DNA of 64,000 nucleotides from Rheinheimera sp. (GTDB lineage Bacteria > Pseudomonadota > Gammaproteobacteria > Enterobacterales > Alteromonadaceae): assembly GCF_030690345.1 (NCBI RefSeq), contig NZ_JAUYGV010000008.1, positions 374,433 through 438,432 of the forward strand, given 5' to 3'. Positions 52,122-60,063 of this stretch are shown here, piece after piece. Position numbers and translations under genes: made by a program. Each line of letters starts with the position of its first letter. Within the stretch, counting starts at the first letter, position 1. The notes under the pieces are model-generated. The model saw only the letters and a list, made by a program, of their open reading frames with translations, had not been told where the DNA came from and did no database searches.

Positions 52122-52254
52122 TGGCCCCATAGCTCAGTTGGTTAGAGCGCTCGACTCATAATTAGTGAGTCCATGTGGTACCATAGGAAATGTTGGTTCA
52201 AGTTGTAAAATCGTGGCCCCATAGCTCAGTTGGTTAGAGCGCTCGACTCATAAT
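52122..52254 (+). repeat. Direct repeat of 41 bases, 92-base period (attachment-like)
   Basis: Copies at 52122-52162 and 52214-52254 are identical, from the base before the tRNA through the anticodon loop. Such tRNA-half repeats arise from site-specific integration and excision. The 51 bases between the copies are unlike the tRNA 3' half. Confidence 0.7.
52123..52162 (+). pseudogene. 5' half of a tRNA gene (partial duplicate)
   Basis: Forty bases identical to the acceptor strand, D arm and anticodon region of the intact tRNA at 52215. After AAT in the anticodon loop the sequence diverges, and no TGGGGCC acceptor complement follows, so it cannot fold as a tRNA. Because it is next to the promoter, it probably marks the original gene position, split by recombination at the anticodon loop. 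Confidence 0.8.
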
Positions 52255-52291
52255 CGATCGGTCGCTGGTTCGAGTCCAGCTGGGGCCACCA
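52215..52291 (+). tRNA. tRNA with anticodon CAT, probably tRNA-Ile2
   Basis: 77 bases including encoded CCA. The acceptor GGCCCCA pairs with TGGGGCC. The anticodon loop is CTCATAA (CAT). GGCCCC at the 5' end, CGACTCATAATCG and the T arm GCTGGTTCGAGTCCAGC resemble the lysidine-modified tRNA-Ile2 of E. coli more than elongator tRNA-Met (which starts GGCTACG). The outermost anticodon-stem pair is a C-T mismatch. Confidence 0.85.
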
Positions 52292-52618
52292 ATCCACTAA
52301 ATACGCGGCTTCTAGCTGTGTTCAGCACCAAAACCCATCACTCTTACTAGAAAAATCGACTGGTTGTAGCTGAAAAAGCTTGGGCTAGTAAATTATTCAT
52401 GGTTTCAAGCACAACCAAAGCACCACGTAATACACCGGCTACAGCATAGTGTAAAAAGTCGTAAGGGCTTTATATGCTCTGTTGTATTACAGCTAACAGA
52501 AATCGTCTCTTTGGCAGCTGTGGTGTAATAAATCCAAAAATGGAAATAAACTTCTTTGCTTTCCTAGGTGACAAATGTAACATAAGGCACATAACAAACA
52601 GCTGGATATTTAAACAGT
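52292..52618. other. Gene-free stretch after the tRNA
   Basis: 327 bases of AT-rich DNA between the tRNA and the first island gene. An imperfect inverted repeat (TGTATTACAGCT near 52481, AGCTGTGGTGTAATA near 52518) could be an operator for the small ribbon-helix-helix-like gene downstream. Nothing else was recognised. Confidence 0.3.
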
Positions 52619-52801
52619 ATGAGTATAGGAAAAAGTGGTAGGATTGTCTTACAAATAGACCCTAACTTAAAAAAGCAGCTATACGGAGAGCTGGCAATTC
52701 AGGGACTAACACTCAAAGAGTGGTTTCTTGCCAGAGCAGGCGAACTACTGAAAAGTGGCAACGATCGTACCCAATCAACTACTAACAAAGAAAATGAGTA
52801 A
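52619..52801 (+). CDS. Small ribbon-helix-helix-like protein
   Basis: 60 residues. The pattern is one short beta strand (GRIVLQIDP) followed by two helices (NLKKQLYGELAIQG and TLKEWFLARAGELL) and a polar tail, as in Arc/CopG-type DNA-binding proteins. The gene overlaps the start of the first methyltransferase. By position it could act as the controller of the restriction-modification locus, as C proteins do elsewhere, though those are helix-turn-helix proteins. No clear ribosome site. Confidence 0.55.
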   Translation: MSIGKSGRIVLQIDPNLKKQLYGELAIQGLTLKEWFLARAGELLKSGNDRTQSTTNKENE

Positions 52802-53690
52802 AATGGCTGAAGAAATTGAGAAAAGTGAAATCGTTGAAGAAACCGCGAGCACAAAAAAAGGCAAATACGACCCGCGCAATAAGCTGAACGATCTAACATC
52901 AAGTGAATGGATTCCTGAAACAATTTCCGTATGGAATCAGAAAGGTCTAGGCGCTAAACATCCTGATGTAAAAATTGAAAAACAACACCCTGCGCCGTTC
53001 TCATTCACTGATGTGGCAAGACTTATCAGATTTTTTACTAAAAAAGATCAAGTCGTACTTGACCCTTTTTTGGGTATTGGTTCAACTCTCAAAGCTTGCG
53101 CGACCGAGCATAGGCGTGGCATAGGTATCGAGCTTAACCCTAAATACGCAGAACTATCGAAAGAAAGAATGGATACTGAGCTTGCAGAGAGCTCAAACAA
53201 ATCCGAGCAAGTAGTTCTGCAAGGCGACTCACGAGAAGTCCTTGATACACTTGAAGAAAACAGCATCGACTTCGTTGTAACCAGTCCTCCATACTGGAAT
53301 ATTCTTCATAAAGAAGATCATAAGGTAAAGCAGGAACGCAAAGAGCACTCTTTGGATACCAAGTACAGTGATAGCGAACAGGATTTAGGCAACATTGACG
53401 ATTACGAAATATTTCTGGAACAACTAACTGGAATTTTAGCAAAGTGTGCAAGGGTGCTAAAACCACAAAAATACATGGCTGTTGTTGTAAGCGATTTCCG
53501 TGATAAGTCAAAATATATAATGTTCCATTCAGACTTAGCTAGAAAATTAGATCCGATTGGTCTGGAAATGCGAGGCTTAAAAGTGCTTTACCAAAGGCAT
53601 AAAAGAATATTTCCATACGGATATCCCTATGCTTACGTTCCCAATATTCATAACCAATACATACTGATTTTGCAAAATGCTAAAAAATAA
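52794..53690 (+). CDS. DNA methyltransferase, motif order X-I-IV (SPPY type)
   Basis: 298 residues from ATG 52794 (ATG 52803 is an alternative). The SAM-binding part comes first: motif X-like EKQHPAPF (62-69), motif I DPFLGIGST (90-98), motif II IELNPKY (112-118), then the catalytic motif IV TSPPYW (163-168). The SPPY tetrad is commonest in N4-cytosine enzymes but also occurs in N6-adenine ones. The C-terminal 120 residues would hold target recognition. The gene overlaps the next methyltransferase by 14 bases. The base use is AT-rich relative to the core genome. Confidence 0.85.
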   Translation: MSKMAEEIEKSEIVEETASTKKGKYDPRNKLNDLTSSEWIPETISVWNQKGLGAKHPDVKIEKQHPAPFSFTDVARLIRFFTKKDQVVLDPFLGIGSTLKACATEHRRGIGIELNPKYAELSKERMDTELAESSNKSEQVVLQGDSREVLDTLEENSIDFVVTSPPYWNILHKEDHKVKQERKEHSLDTKYSDSEQDLGNIDDYEIFLEQLTGILAKCARVLKPQKYMAVVVSDFRDKSKYIMFHSDLARKLDPIGLEMRGLKVLYQRHKRIFPYGYPYAYVPNIHNQYILILQNAKK

Positions 53691-54459
53691 CACTAATTCA
53701 ATTCTGAATATCGATTGTATTGAAGGGTTAAGAAATCTACCCGATAACTCGGTAAATCTTATAGTTGCAGACCCACCATACAACTTAAATAAAAACTTTG
53801 GGAAGTGGGACGAAAGCAAAAAGAAAGATGTTTGGTTGCCATGGTGCAAGGAATGGCTGAATGAATGTAAACGGGTATTAAAGGATGATGGCAGCATATT
53901 CGTGTACGGCATACACCATCATCTATGTTGGTTACAATGCCATATGATTGACATTGGGCTAGAGTATCGTAGACAGATAATTTGGTACTACGAAAATGGT
54001 TTCTCTGGCTATAAAAACACCCTGCAAGCACACTATGAACCCCTGCTATGGTTTTCAAAAACTAGCGAATTCACTTACCATGTAATCAGAGAGCCATATA
54101 AAAGTGAAGAAAGACTAAAAAATAAAATTACTAAAAATGGTAAAGTATGGACACCGCATCCTGATGGAAGAATGGCTGGTGATGTATGGAGCTTTCCAAC
54201 TTTGGCCGGTAAAAGATTCCAAGGTGAAAAAGTAGACCACCCTACGCAGAAGCCATTATCAATCTCAGAGAGGATAATCAGGCATTTTTCAAACGAAGGT
54301 GATTTGGTAGTTATTCCATTTGCTGGAAGTGGATCAGAATGTGTCGCAGCCAAAAAGCTTAACCGTAATTTTATCGGATTTGAACTGAACCCTGACTACA
54401 TTGAAATTGCCAACAAGAGACTAGCTGACTTGAAACAGATTGAAGCTGCTTTTATTTAG
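53677..54459 (+). CDS. DNA N6-adenine methyltransferase, motif order IV-I (beta type)
   Basis: 260 residues. The catalytic motif IV is ADPPYNLNKNFG (DPPY 32-35), typical of N6-adenine enzymes. A recognition region lies in the middle, then the HPTQKP motif X (188-193) and motif I PFAGSGS (214-220) with FELNPDY. This is the beta arrangement and differs from the upstream methyltransferase. Two dissimilar methyltransferases are expected where each strand of an asymmetric site needs its own enzyme. The gene converges on the nuclease-ferredoxin gene; the coding ends overlap by 8 bases. Confidence 0.88.
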   Translation: MLKNNTNSILNIDCIEGLRNLPDNSVNLIVADPPYNLNKNFGKWDESKKKDVWLPWCKEWLNECKRVLKDDGSIFVYGIHHHLCWLQCHMIDIGLEYRRQIIWYYENGFSGYKNTLQAHYEPLLWFSKTSEFTYHVIREPYKSEERLKNKITKNGKVWTPHPDGRMAGDVWSFPTLAGKRFQGEKVDHPTQKPLSISERIIRHFSNEGDLVVIPFAGSGSECVAAKKLNRNFIGFELNPDYIEIANKRLADLKQIEAAFI

Positions 54460-54468
54460 CAGCTTCAA
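54440..54468. terminator. Hairpin containing both convergent stop codons
   Basis: TTGAAGCTGCT (54440-54450) pairs perfectly with AGCAGCTTCAA (54458-54468) around TTTATTT. The methyltransferase stop TAG (54457-54459) and the opposing TAA (54454-54452) both fall inside it. It is probably a two-way transcription barrier between the modification and restriction arms. Confidence 0.6.
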
Positions 54469-55456
54469 CAAGGTTACAAGGGGATGCCAAATTTGGCTCC
54501 CTTCCCAGCAAAATGGTTATCCCTTCCCTAGCGCTGGTATTATCTTTACTTAAGTTAAACAATAGAACATCCATGGCTGTCTTATTCCAAGCAACACTCA
54601 ACAAAGCAGTCAAAGGGACAATCATAATATCTAAATCTACTACATTCTTGATGTCACTAATCAATTCCCAAAACTCTGTTCTTTTGTTTGGGAGCTCCGG
54701 CAAAACAATCATTCCTTTTACTTTACTCTTGTCAACATTGTTTCTAGAACAGAAAACGGCTACATCATCAAGAATATCTCTTGGTGAATCTAAATTTGCT
54801 ACAGTTTCAACCTCTACTAAGATGTGAAAATCACCATAAGCGCTGATCCCATCCATACGCATATTCACATCGCCCTGTCTGGTCAGAAACGTGTCGATTC
54901 CTGTGACTTGAAGAGCTTTGCAAACTAACCTGTTAATAGTAGCGGTTCTTGAATCTAGCATATTTATATTTACAAGCACCCCTCTAATTAATGGTTCACT
55001 CTCTATAATAGGTTGATTTGAATGGGAAATATTAAGACTATTTAAAACTACCGGAGTATCTGTGCGTTTCAAATTGCTCAAATCTCGGTGTATAACAGCC
55101 TTGCTTTGATTATTAAAGTGGATCGCCCCGACAGGGCAGACAGCAATACAAAGCCCACACCCGATGCATTTATCACTGTCAATAGATACGTTGCCATCGT
55201 CATCCTTAAAAACTGCATCGGTAGGACAGAGAACGTCTGTCTGAGACATGCGCAAGTCATCCCAAACGTTCTCACCTACCTTAATCTTCAAGCACGACTC
55301 TTCAAAACAGTTGATACAGGAACTTTTTATAACTGCTCCACTTTCGAAACTCAGGGTCGCCGGCTGTCCCGCCACATATAAAACATCAATCCTCTGACTG
55401 TCATCTAGGTAGCTATATGCAGTTTTGTTTTTAATTCGCTGCAACAGTTCAGCCAT
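54452..55456 (-). CDS. Ferredoxin-like protein fused to nuclease-like domain, putative restriction subunit
   Basis: 334 residues. The N-terminal third has eight cysteines in a two-cluster ferredoxin pattern: C47-x2-C50-x4-C55 with C77-P, and C97-x2-C100-x2-C103-x3-C107-P, predicting [4Fe-4S] centres. The C-terminal half resembles the C-terminus of the adjacent nuclease: D202-x12-E215-x-E217, then ELPNKR (254-259) and LISDIK (265-270), the last two spaced as in the partner. The lysine of PD-(D/E)xK is glutamate here, as in BamHI, so activity is open. The start overlaps the partner's stop by 8 bases. Most likely a second endonuclease subunit, with a structural or redox-sensing cluster; an electron-transfer role is the alternative. 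Confidence 0.65.
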   Translation of the reverse strand: MAELLQRIKNKTAYSYLDDSQRIDVLYVAGQPATLSFESGAVIKSSCINCFEESCLKIKVGENVWDDLRMSQTDVLCPTDAVFKDDDGNVSIDSDKCIGCGLCIAVCPVGAIHFNNQSKAVIHRDLSNLKRTDTPVVLNSLNISHSNQPIIESEPLIRGVLVNINMLDSRTATINRLVCKALQVTGIDTFLTRQGDVNMRMDGISAYGDFHILVEVETVANLDSPRDILDDVAVFCSRNNVDKSKVKGMIVLPELPNKRTEFWELISDIKNVVDLDIMIVPLTALLSVAWNKTAMDVLLFNLSKDNTSAREGITILLGREPNLASPCNLVEAAK

Positions 55457-57134
55457 TTATAATCCCCTTTAGCTCAGCAAGAACTTCAAACTCCAGGCTT
55501 TTACTTCCCTTAATTGCTTCTATCGCCAACTTTAACAAATAATCTATCCCTAAAACTGCAATATCAATTCCATATACCTTTTTAATATCGCTAATTAAAC
55601 TTGCAACTTCAGCTCTTTCATTAGGTAACTCATACCCCACAGCAAGACTTGACGTACCAAATTTGTTTGCCTCAGTTTTCCTAGACTGCAGGATAATTTT
55701 ATTTTCTAAAGCCTGTCGAACAGCCTTTACAGAAATGTTCAACTCTTCTGTGGGGGATTTTATTTCCATAGGTATTGAATCACCATCAGAGATAATAATT
55801 GCATCCCAACGTCTTGAGTTAACGCCATGTGGTGGAATGTCACAGTTCAAACCTAAGCATGAAAATATTTGGCCGATAAGGGGATAAAACTGCTCTTTTG
55901 TGTATGTTCTATATCGCTGTTTTAATTGCTGGATAACTTCTTCATCAGTTTTATGTGCAATCAGCGCTTGAACCTGCTTTTTGAATTCATTATCTCTAAC
56001 AACAGCGCTTGGGCTATCAACTAAAGCTTTCTTTAAATCTATGCTAATTGCTGAAGCTAAACCTTTCGATCTTTCTGCCAACCGCGCTGGTGAGTAAATT
56101 GATACTCGTTTACTGCTTGGGGGCACAATTGAAAAAAACTCATTCAAGCTATTCTGCTCAAAAGATTGGAAAGGTGAAAATATTATCTCAGCCGTTCCCA
56201 AAACTGCTTTAATATGAGCATCAGCGGTCTGCTTCTGCGAAGCTACAGGACTGGTATCGAAACCAGCCCGCTCTAACATGCCATAAAACGCGCTTTGAGA
56301 TAATAAACTGCTATCCAAGCCAAGTTTGCCGATAGAAGCCAACCGAATGTCTTTTTTCGCTGCCAATTGCGACAACAAGGTTTTTCCATGTGCTGTTATT
56401 TGATAGGTTCTTTGAGATTTTTTATAGTCTTTTTTATTGTTAATTGGCTGAGCCCAATTCAACCACTTCAATGCACCAAGTGGGAAGCGAGTGTAATTTC
56501 CTGCGGTTACTGGTGATATACCTCTTGCTTCTAACCGCTGGTTAAACTCCTTGTCAAACTCTATTGGATTTTGCCGATAATAAATTAATTCATCACACAT
56601 AGACCTGAAAGATTCATCGGTAATATCTGAATCCATAGATAATGGGCCGAATATCATTTCGTCTCTTGATAAGCACCCATTAAGATAATTAAGTGTTTTC
56701 AATATAGTAAAGAATGGTCGTATTTCGTGAGTTCCATTTACGCTTAGAACTCTGTTTGGGTATTCCATACCTAAGAAGCATTCTTCAATTAGTCTTTTAC
56801 TATCCGCGACCCCTTGCGCGATATAGTCCCCCAACAACGTAAAGTTGTACCAAAGTGCCTTATCGCCACTTTGAATCCATCCAAGAGTCCTATACAGTTC
56901 AGCATACATTTTGCATTGATTGTAAGATTTGTCCCGTGACAAATCTTTACTTGCTCCACGTAGCAGGGCCTCTATTCCCATAGCGCCAGAAGAACTGATT
57001 AGTCCATTCGAAACAAGTAATTCCTGCATGTCATGCAGGTCAAAAACCTCATTCCGGTTTATATTTCGGTATAGGAAAAGATAACAGTTAACTAAATTAT
57101 CAAGGGCTGAGCCGGGGTTTGGGAATCTGAGCAT
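55449..57134 (-). CDS. PD-(D/E)xK endonuclease, putative restriction subunit
   Basis: 561 residues. The first roughly 290 residues are helical and Tyr/Leu-rich and may contain winged-helix DNA-recognition domains (QRTYQITAHGKTLLSQL). The C-terminus has a PD-(D/E)xK core: Asp444 in RRWDAIII, then Glu457-x-Lys459 in PMEIKSPTE, followed by ELPNER (502-507) and LISDIK (513-518). The size and layout recall AlwI-like type IIS endonucleases, but I cannot confirm the family. It lies upstream of and overlaps the ferredoxin-nuclease gene, opposite two methyltransferases. Restriction is the natural role; specificity is unknown. Confidence 0.7.
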   Translation of the reverse strand: MLRFPNPGSALDNLVNCYLFLYRNINRNEVFDLHDMQELLVSNGLISSSGAMGIEALLRGASKDLSRDKSYNQCKMYAELYRTLGWIQSGDKALWYNFTLLGDYIAQGVADSKRLIEECFLGMEYPNRVLSVNGTHEIRPFFTILKTLNYLNGCLSRDEMIFGPLSMDSDITDESFRSMCDELIYYRQNPIEFDKEFNQRLEARGISPVTAGNYTRFPLGALKWLNWAQPINNKKDYKKSQRTYQITAHGKTLLSQLAAKKDIRLASIGKLGLDSSLLSQSAFYGMLERAGFDTSPVASQKQTADAHIKAVLGTAEIIFSPFQSFEQNSLNEFFSIVPPSSKRVSIYSPARLAERSKGLASAISIDLKKALVDSPSAVVRDNEFKKQVQALIAHKTDEEVIQQLKQRYRTYTKEQFYPLIGQIFSCLGLNCDIPPHGVNSRRWDAIIISDGDSIPMEIKSPTEELNISVKAVRQALENKIILQSRKTEANKFGTSSLAVGYELPNERAEVASLISDIKKVYGIDIAVLGIDYLLKLAIEAIKGSKSLEFEVLAELKGIING

Positions 57135-57266
57135 AACGTCCTGTAATGGCTTTTTCTTTTAATACTAACAGCTTGGATTCCGGTAAGATAGTGGGAACGA
57201 GAATACTGTTTACCCAAAGCGCACTTCTGTGCACCAAGCCTTATTAACCGTCAAAATGGCACAGCC

Positions 57267-57605
57267 ATGTTGGAATATACAAGTAAAGACCTGATTTATA
57301 TGAAGCTATTAAACACATATGACGATAAAGAAACCGCAGAGCATGCATGCTCAATGATAAGTGGAGTAAAAAGACTTGCAAGCGAACGAGATGGTACTCA
57401 AACCATTTATAATCTGTTTGGCACTCCCACTTGGGGAAATTTCTACAGGCTTGATATGTTTAACTTGAAACAACTCGAAAATTTACTCAGTCAGAGAGAT
57501 ACTGGGCTGCCATATGATCAAAATCAGCATAGACAAATCATCAACCAATTAAGATACGTCGAATCAAGTTTCGAATTAAAAATTCCTGAGCGCTGGAATT
57601 TATGA
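57267..57605 (+). CDS. Hypothetical protein
   Basis: 112 residues, not recognised. It is mixed alpha/beta with no membrane segment, cysteine cluster or obvious binding motif (EYTSKDLIYMKLLNTYDDKE, GTPTWGNFYRLDMFNLKQL). No clear ribosome site at ATG 57267; an internal ATG 12 codons on is possible. It lies between the restriction locus and the recombinases, divergent from the endonuclease gene. Confidence 0.5.
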   Translation: MLEYTSKDLIYMKLLNTYDDKETAEHACSMISGVKRLASERDGTQTIYNLFGTPTWGNFYRLDMFNLKQLENLLSQRDTGLPYDQNQHRQIINQLRYVESSFELKIPERWNL

Positions 57606-57828
57606 TTTAGTTATAAGGTATAAGTATGCCCTTTAGGTAAGCCCCTGTAAATCAGCAGCTTTGATAGGCATGTATGAGAAACTATTAGGGGGAATATTAG
57701 CGCGCATCCATGTATCGGATGGATTTTCGATGGTTTTAACGTATGCAAACCATTGCTGTTGTTAGCTGTTGGCTCTTTACCCTATTGACCGGATAGTACC
57801 CATTATCAGTTCAGTAACGGGTTTCAAG

Positions 57829-58845
57829 ATGGCAATCTACAAACGTAAAAACTCATCCAGCTACTACTGTGAAATCACCATTAACGGCAAAACCGTTATC
57901 CGTAGCACCAAAACAGCTAAAAAGTCGGATGCTTTGCGCTTTGAAGCCCAGTTACGTGAGCAGCTATATCGTCAGGTGGTGTTAGGTGAGCAACAAACCA
58001 TCACTTTGGAACAAGCCATTGCTGATTATGCCAAAACCAAAGCCGGTTCGGTGAATGGTCGTAACCTTAAAACACAGATCACCACACTACGTACTCAGCT
58101 TAACCGAGTGTACTCACTTAAAAACGGCTTACATGGCTTAAACGGTGGTCATTTAAACCGCTTAGTTGCACTTCGTCGGCAAGATGATGTATCCGATGGC
58201 ACTATCCGCTTAATGTTCACCACGTTAAAAGGGGTGGTCAACTTCACTAAATCGGCAGGCTATCTGCAACCAACCAATCTGGTTATCCCACGTTTAAAAG
58301 TCAGCAACCAGAGAACCCGCACCCTGTCAGATGCAGAAGAACAGCGGTTACTGGCAATCCTACAAACTCACAAAAACCCTGATGATTACGATTTGGTTGT
58401 GTTACTGCTTGATACCGCAGCACGTTTAAACGAAATCCAGCAACTTACATGGGATTCAGTGGATTTAGCAGCTGCTGAACTGCGTGTATGGCGCACCAAA
58501 ACGCAAACCGAATCACTATTAAAGCTTACGGATAGGTCACTGGCTATCCTGCAACGCAGAGCAGCAAGCAATCAGGATTCGTCACTGGTGTTTCCATCAA
58601 AATCGGGTGGCATTCGTCGCACTACACCAAAAACCATTCAAAAGGCTTATAAACAAGCTGGCTTGGATGATTTTTGCACCCACAGTATTCGTCACAGCAC
58701 AGCCAGTAAACTGGTTAAAAACGGCATGAGCTTATTTGCTGTATCGAAAATCCTGGGCCATTCCAGTATATCCATGAGCCAACGTTACTCACACCTTGAG
58801 CAAGCAACGGTAGCAGAGCAAGCCATGCAAATTCTTAATAACTGA
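57829..58845 (+). CDS. Tyrosine recombinase / phage-type integrase, copy 1
   Basis: 338 residues from ATG 57829 (MAIYKRKNSSSYYCE, matching the start of the next gene; a frame extension upstream to 57769 is unlikely). The N-terminal arm-binding part and SAM-like core-binding domain precede the catalytic domain with Arg199 in TAARLNEI, His285-Arg288 in HSIRHSTAS, His311 in ILGHSS and nucleophile Tyr320 in QRYSHL. All key residues are present. Probable integrase of the island; which att site it uses cannot be told. Confidence 0.88.
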   Translation: MAIYKRKNSSSYYCEITINGKTVIRSTKTAKKSDALRFEAQLREQLYRQVVLGEQQTITLEQAIADYAKTKAGSVNGRNLKTQITTLRTQLNRVYSLKNGLHGLNGGHLNRLVALRRQDDVSDGTIRLMFTTLKGVVNFTKSAGYLQPTNLVIPRLKVSNQRTRTLSDAEEQRLLAILQTHKNPDDYDLVVLLLDTAARLNEIQQLTWDSVDLAAAELRVWRTKTQTESLLKLTDRSLAILQRRAASNQDSSLVFPSKSGGIRRTTPKTIQKAYKQAGLDDFCTHSIRHSTASKLVKNGMSLFAVSKILGHSSISMSQRYSHLEQATVAEQAMQILNN

Positions 58846-58977: not shown

Positions 58978-60063
58978 ATGAGTGTTTTTAAACGAAATGG
59001 CATTGGTAATTACTATATCCAGTTCAACCATAACGGTAAAACCTACTGCAAAAGCTCAAAAACTACCAACAAGCGCACAGCTGAACGCATGGAACGGGAT
59101 TGGCGTGATGAAATTCACCGGATTGAAGAACTTGGTGAACGGCCACGCATTACCTTAAAAGATGCTTTAAACGGCTATGTTCAAAGCAAAGCCAATACTG
59201 GTAGCAGTGTGTATGCAAAAAATAATCTACCCGCCATCGAATCCAAAATGGATACATCTGTTTTCATCGATGAACTAAGGGATTGGGATTTAAACAAATT
59301 TAAATCCAGCCGTGAAGCTGATGGTATGGCACCTCAAACCATAAAACATAACCTGCAAGCTATCCGTAGTGCTATTGCATGGGCCAAAGATCATGGTTAT
59401 CAGATTAAACCGTTAACCTTTCCCAAAGTTAAGCTTAATAAACACAGGTTACGCTACCTATCACACGATGAAGAAGCACGGTTACTGGCCGATTTAGATC
59501 CGAAACGCAAACGGCCCTACCGGCCAGATTATGAGTTTCGTCCTGCTGCTGAAAACCGGATGTATCAGGATAACTATGATTTGGTCGTGTTACTGCTGGA
59601 TACGGGCGCTCGTTATAGTGAAATCGCTAATATCAAGTGGTCTGCTATCGATCTGGAAAATGGAATAATCAATCTGTGGCGCCCTAAAGTCCGTAACGAG
59701 TCCATCATTTACATGACCAGTCGGGTAAAAGATATTCTTACCCACCGGTATTCAGATCGGGTAAGTGATGATCACCTGTTTACCAATCTGGATGGTCAGC
59801 CACGGGGCTATCAGTCAAAAGGTATTCGTTCCGCTTTTCAACGTGCTGGTATTACTGATTTCAAAATCCATGATTTGCGTCATACCTGTGCCAGCAGATT
59901 GGTACAGGCTGGATTATCACTGTATGAAGTTGCCAGTATTCTGGGACATACAGATGTTTCAACTACCCAGATTTACGCTCACCTTGAACGCAAAGATGTC
60001 AGCGCAAAAGCACGTGATGTACTGGAAAACCTGCATCGTCTCACACAAGGAGAACTACAATGA
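58978..60063 (+). CDS. Tyrosine recombinase / phage-type integrase, copy 2
   Basis: 361 residues, start MSVFKRNGIGNYYIQF with AGGGA upstream. Catalytic set: Arg212 in TGARYSEI, His298-Arg301 in HDLRHTCAS, His324 in ILGHTD and Tyr333 in QIYAHL. It is paralogous to the preceding recombinase throughout, with an insertion of about 20 residues before the first catalytic arginine (RKRPYRPDYEFRPAAENRM). The ATG of the next small gene overlaps its stop as ATGA. Confidence 0.88.
   Translation: MSVFKRNGIGNYYIQFNHNGKTYCKSSKTTNKRTAERMERDWRDEIHRIEELGERPRITLKDALNGYVQSKANTGSSVYAKNNLPAIESKMDTSVFIDELRDWDLNKFKSSREADGMAPQTIKHNLQAIRSAIAWAKDHGYQIKPLTFPKVKLNKHRLRYLSHDEEARLLADLDPKRKRPYRPDYEFRPAAENRMYQDNYDLVVLLLDTGARYSEIANIKWSAIDLENGIINLWRPKVRNESIIYMTSRVKDILTHRYSDRVSDDHLFTNLDGQPRGYQSKGIRSAFQRAGITDFKIHDLRHTCASRLVQAGLSLYEVASILGHTDVSTTQIYAHLERKDVSAKARDVLENLHRLTQGELQ

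Follow-up and report, generated by a model that had tools for sequence, protein, structure and literature searches.

Type IIT restriction enzymes are described as built from subunits of unequal size, with two catalytic sites and usually a pair of methyltransferases (PMC4081073). According to the same review, site recognition and the cutting of one strand fall to the larger subunit in BsrDI, BtsI and BspD6I, and the smaller subunit cuts the other strand (PMC4081073). BtsI combines two unequal restriction (R) subunits with two methyltransferases, and its large subunit is reported to nick DNA alone (PMC2909958, PMC4081073); the small subunit of BspD6I is reported to be active solely with a catalytically active large subunit (PMC6261011). 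Here we analysed a stretch of 64,000 nucleotides from Rheinheimera sp. (contig NZ_JAUYGV010000008.1, positions 374,433 to 438,432), referred to below as the window, which holds a locus of five open, tightly packed genes at 52619-57134, three on the plus strand converging on two on the minus strand. The locus is likely to encode a Type II restriction-modification system that is mobile, acts on an asymmetric site and follows the plan of BspD6I and BtsI (Type IIT), with a small subunit that carries a ferredoxin-like domain.

The compact five-gene layout given in the initial annotation, with its coordinates and overlaps, was borne out. A gene for a 60-residue protein (52619..52801, plus strand) is followed by the SPPY DNA methyltransferase M1 (52794..53690, plus strand), whose ATG at 52794 overlaps the stop of the first gene and for which GTG 52755 and ATG 52803 are alternative starts, and then by the DPPY DNA methyltransferase M2 (53677..54459, plus strand), which overlaps M1 by 14 base pairs (bp). 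The two minus-strand genes code for a large R subunit of 561 residues (55449..57134) and a small R subunit of 334 residues (54452..55456), and overlap by 8 bp; the small-subunit gene and M2 also overlap by 8 bp, tail to tail at their stops. In the large subunit, an N-terminal part presumed to serve recognition precedes a C-terminal nuclease domain (approximately residues 411-543, 55506..55904, minus strand). The small subunit consists of an N-terminal, two-cluster ferredoxin-like domain (residues 41-120, 55097..55336, minus strand) and a C-terminal nuclease domain (approximately residues 170-290, 54587..54949, minus strand).

The nuclease domains of the large and small subunits are homologous to each other. 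As genome queries, the large protein matched the small protein of its own genome (35% identity, E value 5.2e-4) and the small protein matched the large one (34% identity, E value 1.3e-4). A large-subunit profile found the small subunit in the genomes of three related loci, L008, L009 and L010 (E values 1.7e-7 to 5.0e-7), and a profile-against-profile comparison of the two nuclease domains in hhalign gave an E value of 2.2e-8 from alignments of 3 rows each, improving to 2.8e-14 when these were enlarged to 9 and 8 rows. Across the final sets, which contain the window's proteins and comprise 12 large and 11 small subunits, D444, E457 and K459 of the large subunit (D...ExK) are invariant (12/12), as are D202, E215 and E217 of the small subunit (D...ExE, 11/11), where the spacing from the D to the first E is 12-14 residues (13 in the window, by reading). 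The initial annotation had placed PD-(D/E)xK-like cores in both minus-strand genes; the homology and the D...ExK of the large subunit agree with this, but in the small subunit the motif reads D...ExE instead of ExK. The two genes did not prove to belong to a known family unrelated to restriction: the domain they share has an invariant D...E-x-(K/E) core, and its best matches among solved structures, from poor models, include BspD6I and FokI. Because the catalytic residues described for BamHI include D94, E111 and E113 (PMC8845596), and hence an ExE pair, the D...ExE site of the small subunit appears compatible with activity, short of demonstrating it.

The N-terminal domain of the small subunit contains two sets of cysteines, C47 C50 C55 C77P and C97 C100 C103 C107P, the second of which matches Fer4 in Pfam (7.2e-10, 38.7 bits versus a cut-off of 21.1). 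Judging from this pattern, the domain most likely holds two [4Fe-4S] clusters. It is present in 8 of the 11 small subunits and wholly absent from those of L059, L065 and L068, which are 214-215 residues long. All eight cysteines are kept in all eight domain-bearing proteins, the first CP being CA in L054; residues 41-120, with a mean pairwise identity of 0.35, contain 12 invariant columns, eight of which are these cysteines, and the other cysteines of the window's small subunit (179, 236 and 327) are not conserved. A reading of the protein as an iron-staple nuclease was rejected because the cysteines sit in the wrong place, all eight conserved ones (residues 47-107) preceding the nuclease domain.

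Presence or absence of the ferredoxin-like domain corresponds to one change on each of four trees, supported at 100/100 (large subunit), 100/100 (small subunit), 98/94 (M1) and 89/83 (M2); these trees are unrooted and do not distinguish gain from loss of the domain, and the small-subunit tree was built with the columns of the domain itself. L057, for which no small subunit was seen, was placed in neither group. The domain-bearing L053 joins the domain-less loci in the M1 and M2 trees (100/100). In the complete loci without the domain (L059 and L065) all four genes share a strand, and all eight complete loci with it are convergent.

Both methyltransferase motifs of the initial annotation, SPPY in M1 and DPPY in M2, are present, and both proteins match Pfam N6_N4_Mtase (1.3e-27 for M1, 6.1e-56 for M2); M1 also matches the PADLOC Type II methyltransferase model (6.3e-37). 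By our reading of the sequence, motif I lies ahead of motif IV in M1. The nearest solved relative in PDB searches is 2zie for M1 (1.1e-26) and, for M2, the MboII methyltransferase MboIIA (1g60, 8.2e-46 over residues 6-250 of 260). MboIIA partners a different endonuclease. The RHH label first given to the 60-residue protein is hinted at by its homologue in L010, which reached HicB at an E value of 0.011, below the cut-off; the window protein is without a Pfam match, and its homologues are 57% (L009) and 50% (L010) identical. This RHH-like gene precedes M1 in the window, L009 and L010; separate HTH_17 proteins are encoded in L042 (3460-3756) and L054 (10263-10502), and an HTH_17 domain is fused to M1 in L053 (11623-12870) and L059 (2755-3867). 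The swapped small DNA-binding partner might help M1 to locate its site or control M1 expression. In three of the 12 loci (L008, L053 and L056), the large subunit is immediately preceded by a gene of the XRE type found in controller proteins; no systematic search for such genes was made in the other loci. At this place the window has a 112-residue open frame (57267-57605), for which Pfam, PADLOC, NCBIfam and PHROGs gave no convincing match.

M1, M2 and the large and small subunits occur together in 10 of the 12 non-redundant loci, by gene content read and checked with tblastn, a recurrence beyond chance. In the other two, L057 and L068, the contig breaks off directly behind the R gene or genes, and the sequence present contains no relative of M1 or M2. 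Eight of the ten have the convergent layout (window, L008/L009, L010, L042, L053, L054, L056 and L071), the single-strand L059 and L065 being the remaining two. The large and small genes are adjacent in 11 of the 12 loci; in L057 the contig stops 98 bases past the large gene. Apart from its small DNA-binding gene, the gene set singled out at the start is conserved as a unit elsewhere. By sequence, each of the two unequal R subunits has its own catalytic-type site, and two adjacent methyltransferases accompany them in the same ten loci, as in the description of Type IIT enzymes.

These relatives came from two kinds of contigs. Scanning genome contigs with the large protein gave L008 and L009, from methanotroph symbionts of Bathymodiolus, and L010, from a gammaproteobacterial metagenome-assembled genome, all with the gene order of the window; the same scan with the small protein gave no relatives. 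Scans of viral contigs with M1, the large subunit and the small nuclease domain added L042, L053, L054/L055, L056, L057, L059, L065, L068 and L071. Four of the eight viral-contig scans found no relatives and one more returned the L042 contig only. Since these contig scans require short, near-exact peptide matches, absence from them is weak evidence, and the relatives found are a lower bound. L008 and L009 are near-copies and were counted as one locus; M1 and M2 are broken in L008 (6169-7820) and the large subunit is broken in L009 (706-2669), so the L009 methyltransferases replace those of L008. These opposite broken halves in two mussel symbionts could be decay or assembly error. Near-copies and repeat hits were dropped (L055, equal to L054; L058 and L060, on the L042 contig; L063-L064, L066-L067 and L069-L070), and G775, a weak partial match with an E value of 2.1e-5 over residues 28-91 only, was left uncounted. 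Genes of phage type neighbour the cassette in L042 (integrase, amidase), L055 (terminase, endolysin), L056 (terminase) and L059 (DNA polymerase); no PHROG match was found for the two tested neighbours in L053 and for one of three in L042. In L010 (5719-8001), the cassette directly follows a gene that we take to be glmS-like, from the look of its sequence. The glmS gene is a classic insertion spot for Tn7-type elements.

Searches of wider collections returned few matches. With its own genome counted, the system was found in 1 of 369 genomes of the class and 1 of 196 of the family, and in 2 of 349 of the phylum, namely its own genome and one weak partial match; the orders around L008 and L010 gave 1 of 151 and 1 of 145, in each case the centre genome itself. 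M1, at a strict limit of 1e-40, was found in its own genome only (1 of 369). A tblastn search at 1e-5 with three large subunits per collection gave no match in plasmids or phages, and a DNA search gave none in E. coli. The whole small-subunit profile matched 305 of 398 genomes, swamped by ordinary ferredoxins, and no distribution was therefore drawn from it; among the matches listed, all those outside its own genome fell within positions 47-175, none extending across the nuclease domain. The sole plasmid match of the small subunit is an annotated dimethyl sulfoxide/selenate reductase B subunit (residues 77-181). In the neighbourhoods of M1 relatives in four plasmid records (Haloferax, Natribaculum, Helicobacter and Kozakia) no annotated pair like the large and small subunits was seen. 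A 586-residue neighbour in the Helicobacter plasmid was ruled out as a relative of the large subunit (hhalign probability 0.1%); with the two annotated methyltransferases beside it (L039, 4992-8687), it is possibly part of another restriction-modification system.

In the mechanism that we propose, M1 and M2 would each protect one strand. From its architecture, the large subunit would recognise the site and nick one strand through its D...ExK centre, and would then recruit the small subunit, whose D...ExE centre would cut the other strand, much as BamHI uses an ExE pair. By analogy, such a division of labour, as in BsrDI, BtsI and BspD6I, seems the simplest reading. The ferredoxin-like domain may act as a docking and folding module required for an active small subunit; if so, we conjecture that an enzyme with the cluster unassembled would nick at most, and that to cut both strands it would need the cluster to be assembled or intact. 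It is a tentative and rather doubtful proposal that double-strand cutting is gated by the iron-sulfur domain in this way, the large subunit only nicking until the small subunit acquires its clusters.

The requirements usually given for Type II restriction enzymes are DNA and a divalent metal. If the gating were true, restriction would in addition be linked to iron-sulfur assembly or redox state, which would determine the timing of restriction or the cells in which it takes place. This could provide a post-translational safety delay on entry into a new host, or an off-switch for restriction under oxidative or iron stress, and the domain-less sister group would offer a natural comparison with and without the domain. 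The R subunits would also constitute a heterodimeric enzyme family matched by none of the Pfam, PADLOC and PDB sequence models searched. They might supply nickases, and would exemplify paired D...ExE and D...ExK sites.

Structure comparison brought in the link to BspD6I and FokI. In a Foldseek run against 350,542 PDB chains, a poor model of the small subunit had chains of the BspD6I large subunit at ranks 1 (5liz, 3.4e-3) and 2 (2ewf, 5.9e-3) and the BspD6I small subunit at rank 4 (2p14, 1.5e-2), with probabilities of 0.98-0.99 for the BspD6I chains. A model of the large subunit, also poor, had FokI at rank 1 (6.2e-4, probability 0.82) and Nt.BspD6I at rank 2 (5liq, 3.6e-3, probability 0.89). 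We take this fold match as support, not proof; together with the description of Type IIT enzymes it favours the heteromeric enzyme with two nuclease subunits proposed in the initial annotation. A structure search of BFVD found nothing. Sequence models were equally silent: the window's large subunit and all nine members of profile A8 gave nothing above the cut-off in Pfam or PADLOC, and the window's protein nothing usable in NCBIfam or PHROGs. In Pfam, the only models to match the window's small subunit were those of ferredoxins, and its nuclease domain corresponded to no family in Pfam, PADLOC or the PDB sequences. PDB sequence searches with either R protein found no restriction enzyme, one of them being judged on the best 60 of 168 matches, which were of ferredoxin type.

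Several observations weigh against reading the locus as a Type IIT-like enzyme whose small subunit cuts with the help of a ferredoxin-like domain. The AlphaFold models, made from 3-row alignments, are poor, with a mean predicted local distance difference test (pLDDT) score of 45.9 for the small subunit and 53.0 for the large one. The Foldseek alignments of the small subunit have query TM scores of 0.21-0.31 and root-mean-square deviations (rmsd) of 7-8 Å, none at an E value of 0.001 or less, and those of the large subunit are long but have TM scores of about 0.2 and rmsd of 26-29 Å. PDB sequence profiles from A1 (E values up to 5) and from A8 and A9 (E values up to 10) retrieved no BspD6I chain. 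The usual catalytic K of the small subunit is an E, and in a 4-row default alignment the second E of L042 falls out of register; other alignments align both. The window shows no XRE controller gene, and within the samples searched the system is rare. Finally, three loci manage without the ferredoxin-like domain, so that cutting as such need not require it.

The replacement of K by E means that the small subunit could be inactive, that is, a dead nuclease kept for regulation or docking. The large subunit alone would then cut, either by dimerising as FokI does or as a nickase, and the iron-sulfur domain would act as a sensor or protein contact. The E stands at the third catalytic position in 11/11 small subunits, and FokI, the best structural match of the large subunit, dimerises to cut (PMC8533099). 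However, the D, the E and the second E are invariant even where the ferredoxin-like domain is missing, and a dead site would not need them; BamHI is described as active with ExE (PMC8845596), and the large and small genes remain adjacent in 11 of the 12 loci. We consider a dead small subunit unlikely. A further possibility is that the ferredoxin-like domain plays no regulatory part and is a structural element or an additional contact to DNA, comparable to the cluster in iron-staple nucleases. The cluster of Cas4 is proposed to stabilise the nuclease domain, and its loss is reported to have abolished activity in one protein and not in another (PMC4176176); the domain also behaves as a clean add-on, absent from 3 of the 11 small subunits. 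Its cysteines, however, form a separate N-terminal two-cluster pattern and not a staple around the nuclease core. A purely structural or DNA-contacting domain is quite conceivable, if short of probable.

A role outside restriction, in which two methyltransferases and two proteins of nuclease fold would serve DNA repair or the transfer of a mobile element, appears very improbable. It would sit well with the lack of any PADLOC model matching the large subunit (9/9 members scanned) and with several carriers being phage-like contigs. Nevertheless, linkage with both methyltransferases in 10 of the 12 loci, the upstream XRE genes in three of them, the modelled fold resemblance to BspD6I and FokI, and occurrence in both genome and viral contigs all argue against it. 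A Type IIT-like restriction-modification system therefore remains the reading that we prefer.

The surroundings of the locus bear on its mobility. The cassette is flanked by a tRNA-Met gene (CAT, 52215..52291, plus strand, found by ARAGORN) at the left edge and by two tyrosine integrases on the right side (57769..58845, plus strand, Pfam Phage_integrase 1.4e-28, and 58978..60063, plus strand, 1.2e-28), and therefore is most likely an acquired island. The GC content is 0.394 at 52300-57150 versus 0.524 at 1-52000. The cassette also occurs in genome contigs as well as in phage-like contigs, as noted above. Starting 92 bp before the intact tRNA-Met gene, 41 bp of its 5' half are repeated exactly (52122-52162 versus 52214-52254), which is probably the scar of an earlier integration; no second copy of the tRNA-Met 3' end was found in the window. 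The integrases lie in tandem and share a 57-nucleotide stretch at 77% identity, and so perhaps arose by duplication followed by divergence.

A ferredoxin module had been noted at the outset as unfamiliar in restriction systems, and this stands within the open-access literature searched. No iron-sulfur Type II restriction enzyme was found there; the family may be named in subscription papers, preprints or REBASE. Among the matches listed, the literature joining restriction with iron-sulfur concerned Cas4, Dna2, Dnd, BREX or unrelated subjects, and exact phrases gave none. In the text of the Type II review consulted, the words "iron" and "ferredoxin" have 0 occurrences (PMC4081073), and in that of a 2025 review of restriction-modification "iron-sulfur" appears solely in a reference on DndC (PMC12602166). 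As predicted from the cysteines, a conserved ferredoxin-like domain in the small subunit of a restriction nuclease would thus be new here, undescribed in the open-access literature searched.

Combinations of iron-sulfur clusters with nucleases or defence proteins are known in other settings. Iron-staple nucleases such as Cas4 and AddAB unite a nuclease fold of restriction type with an iron-sulfur cluster in one chain (PMC4176176). In the locus described here, eight cysteines form a separate N-terminal domain, whereas in the iron staple four cysteines brace the nuclease domain. DndC, SspD and Type-4 BREX are described as having iron-sulfur parts within defence or modification systems (PMC10853773, PMC12839542); their clusters belong to modification proteins of the PP-loop or PAPS-reductase-like kind, and here the predicted clusters are in a restriction nuclease. 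The HEPN-T family comprises nucleases of defence type with fusions to two ferredoxin domains (PMC3710099), but HEPN is an RNase-type domain and methyltransferases are unmentioned in the part of that account consulted (PMC3710099), whereas two methyltransferases are present here. FokI, with N-terminal recognition and C-terminal cleavage (PMC4081073), was the top structure match of the large subunit; it is, however, a single kind of chain that dimerises, and the partner here is a separate, divergent subunit, with a poor superposition. BtsI and BsrDI share with our locus the two unequal R subunits and the two methyltransferases, a likeness drawn from their descriptions, and an iron-sulfur domain is unmentioned in the descriptions of them consulted. 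Similar in build is also R.BspD6I, a heterodimeric Type IIS/IIT enzyme formed by Nt.BspD6I and ss.BspD6I, whose large subunit of 604 residues has a C-terminal catalytic domain and is similar in size to the one described here (PMC8533099); its small chain, 2p14, has 186 residues against 334 in ours, with the ferredoxin-like domain in front.

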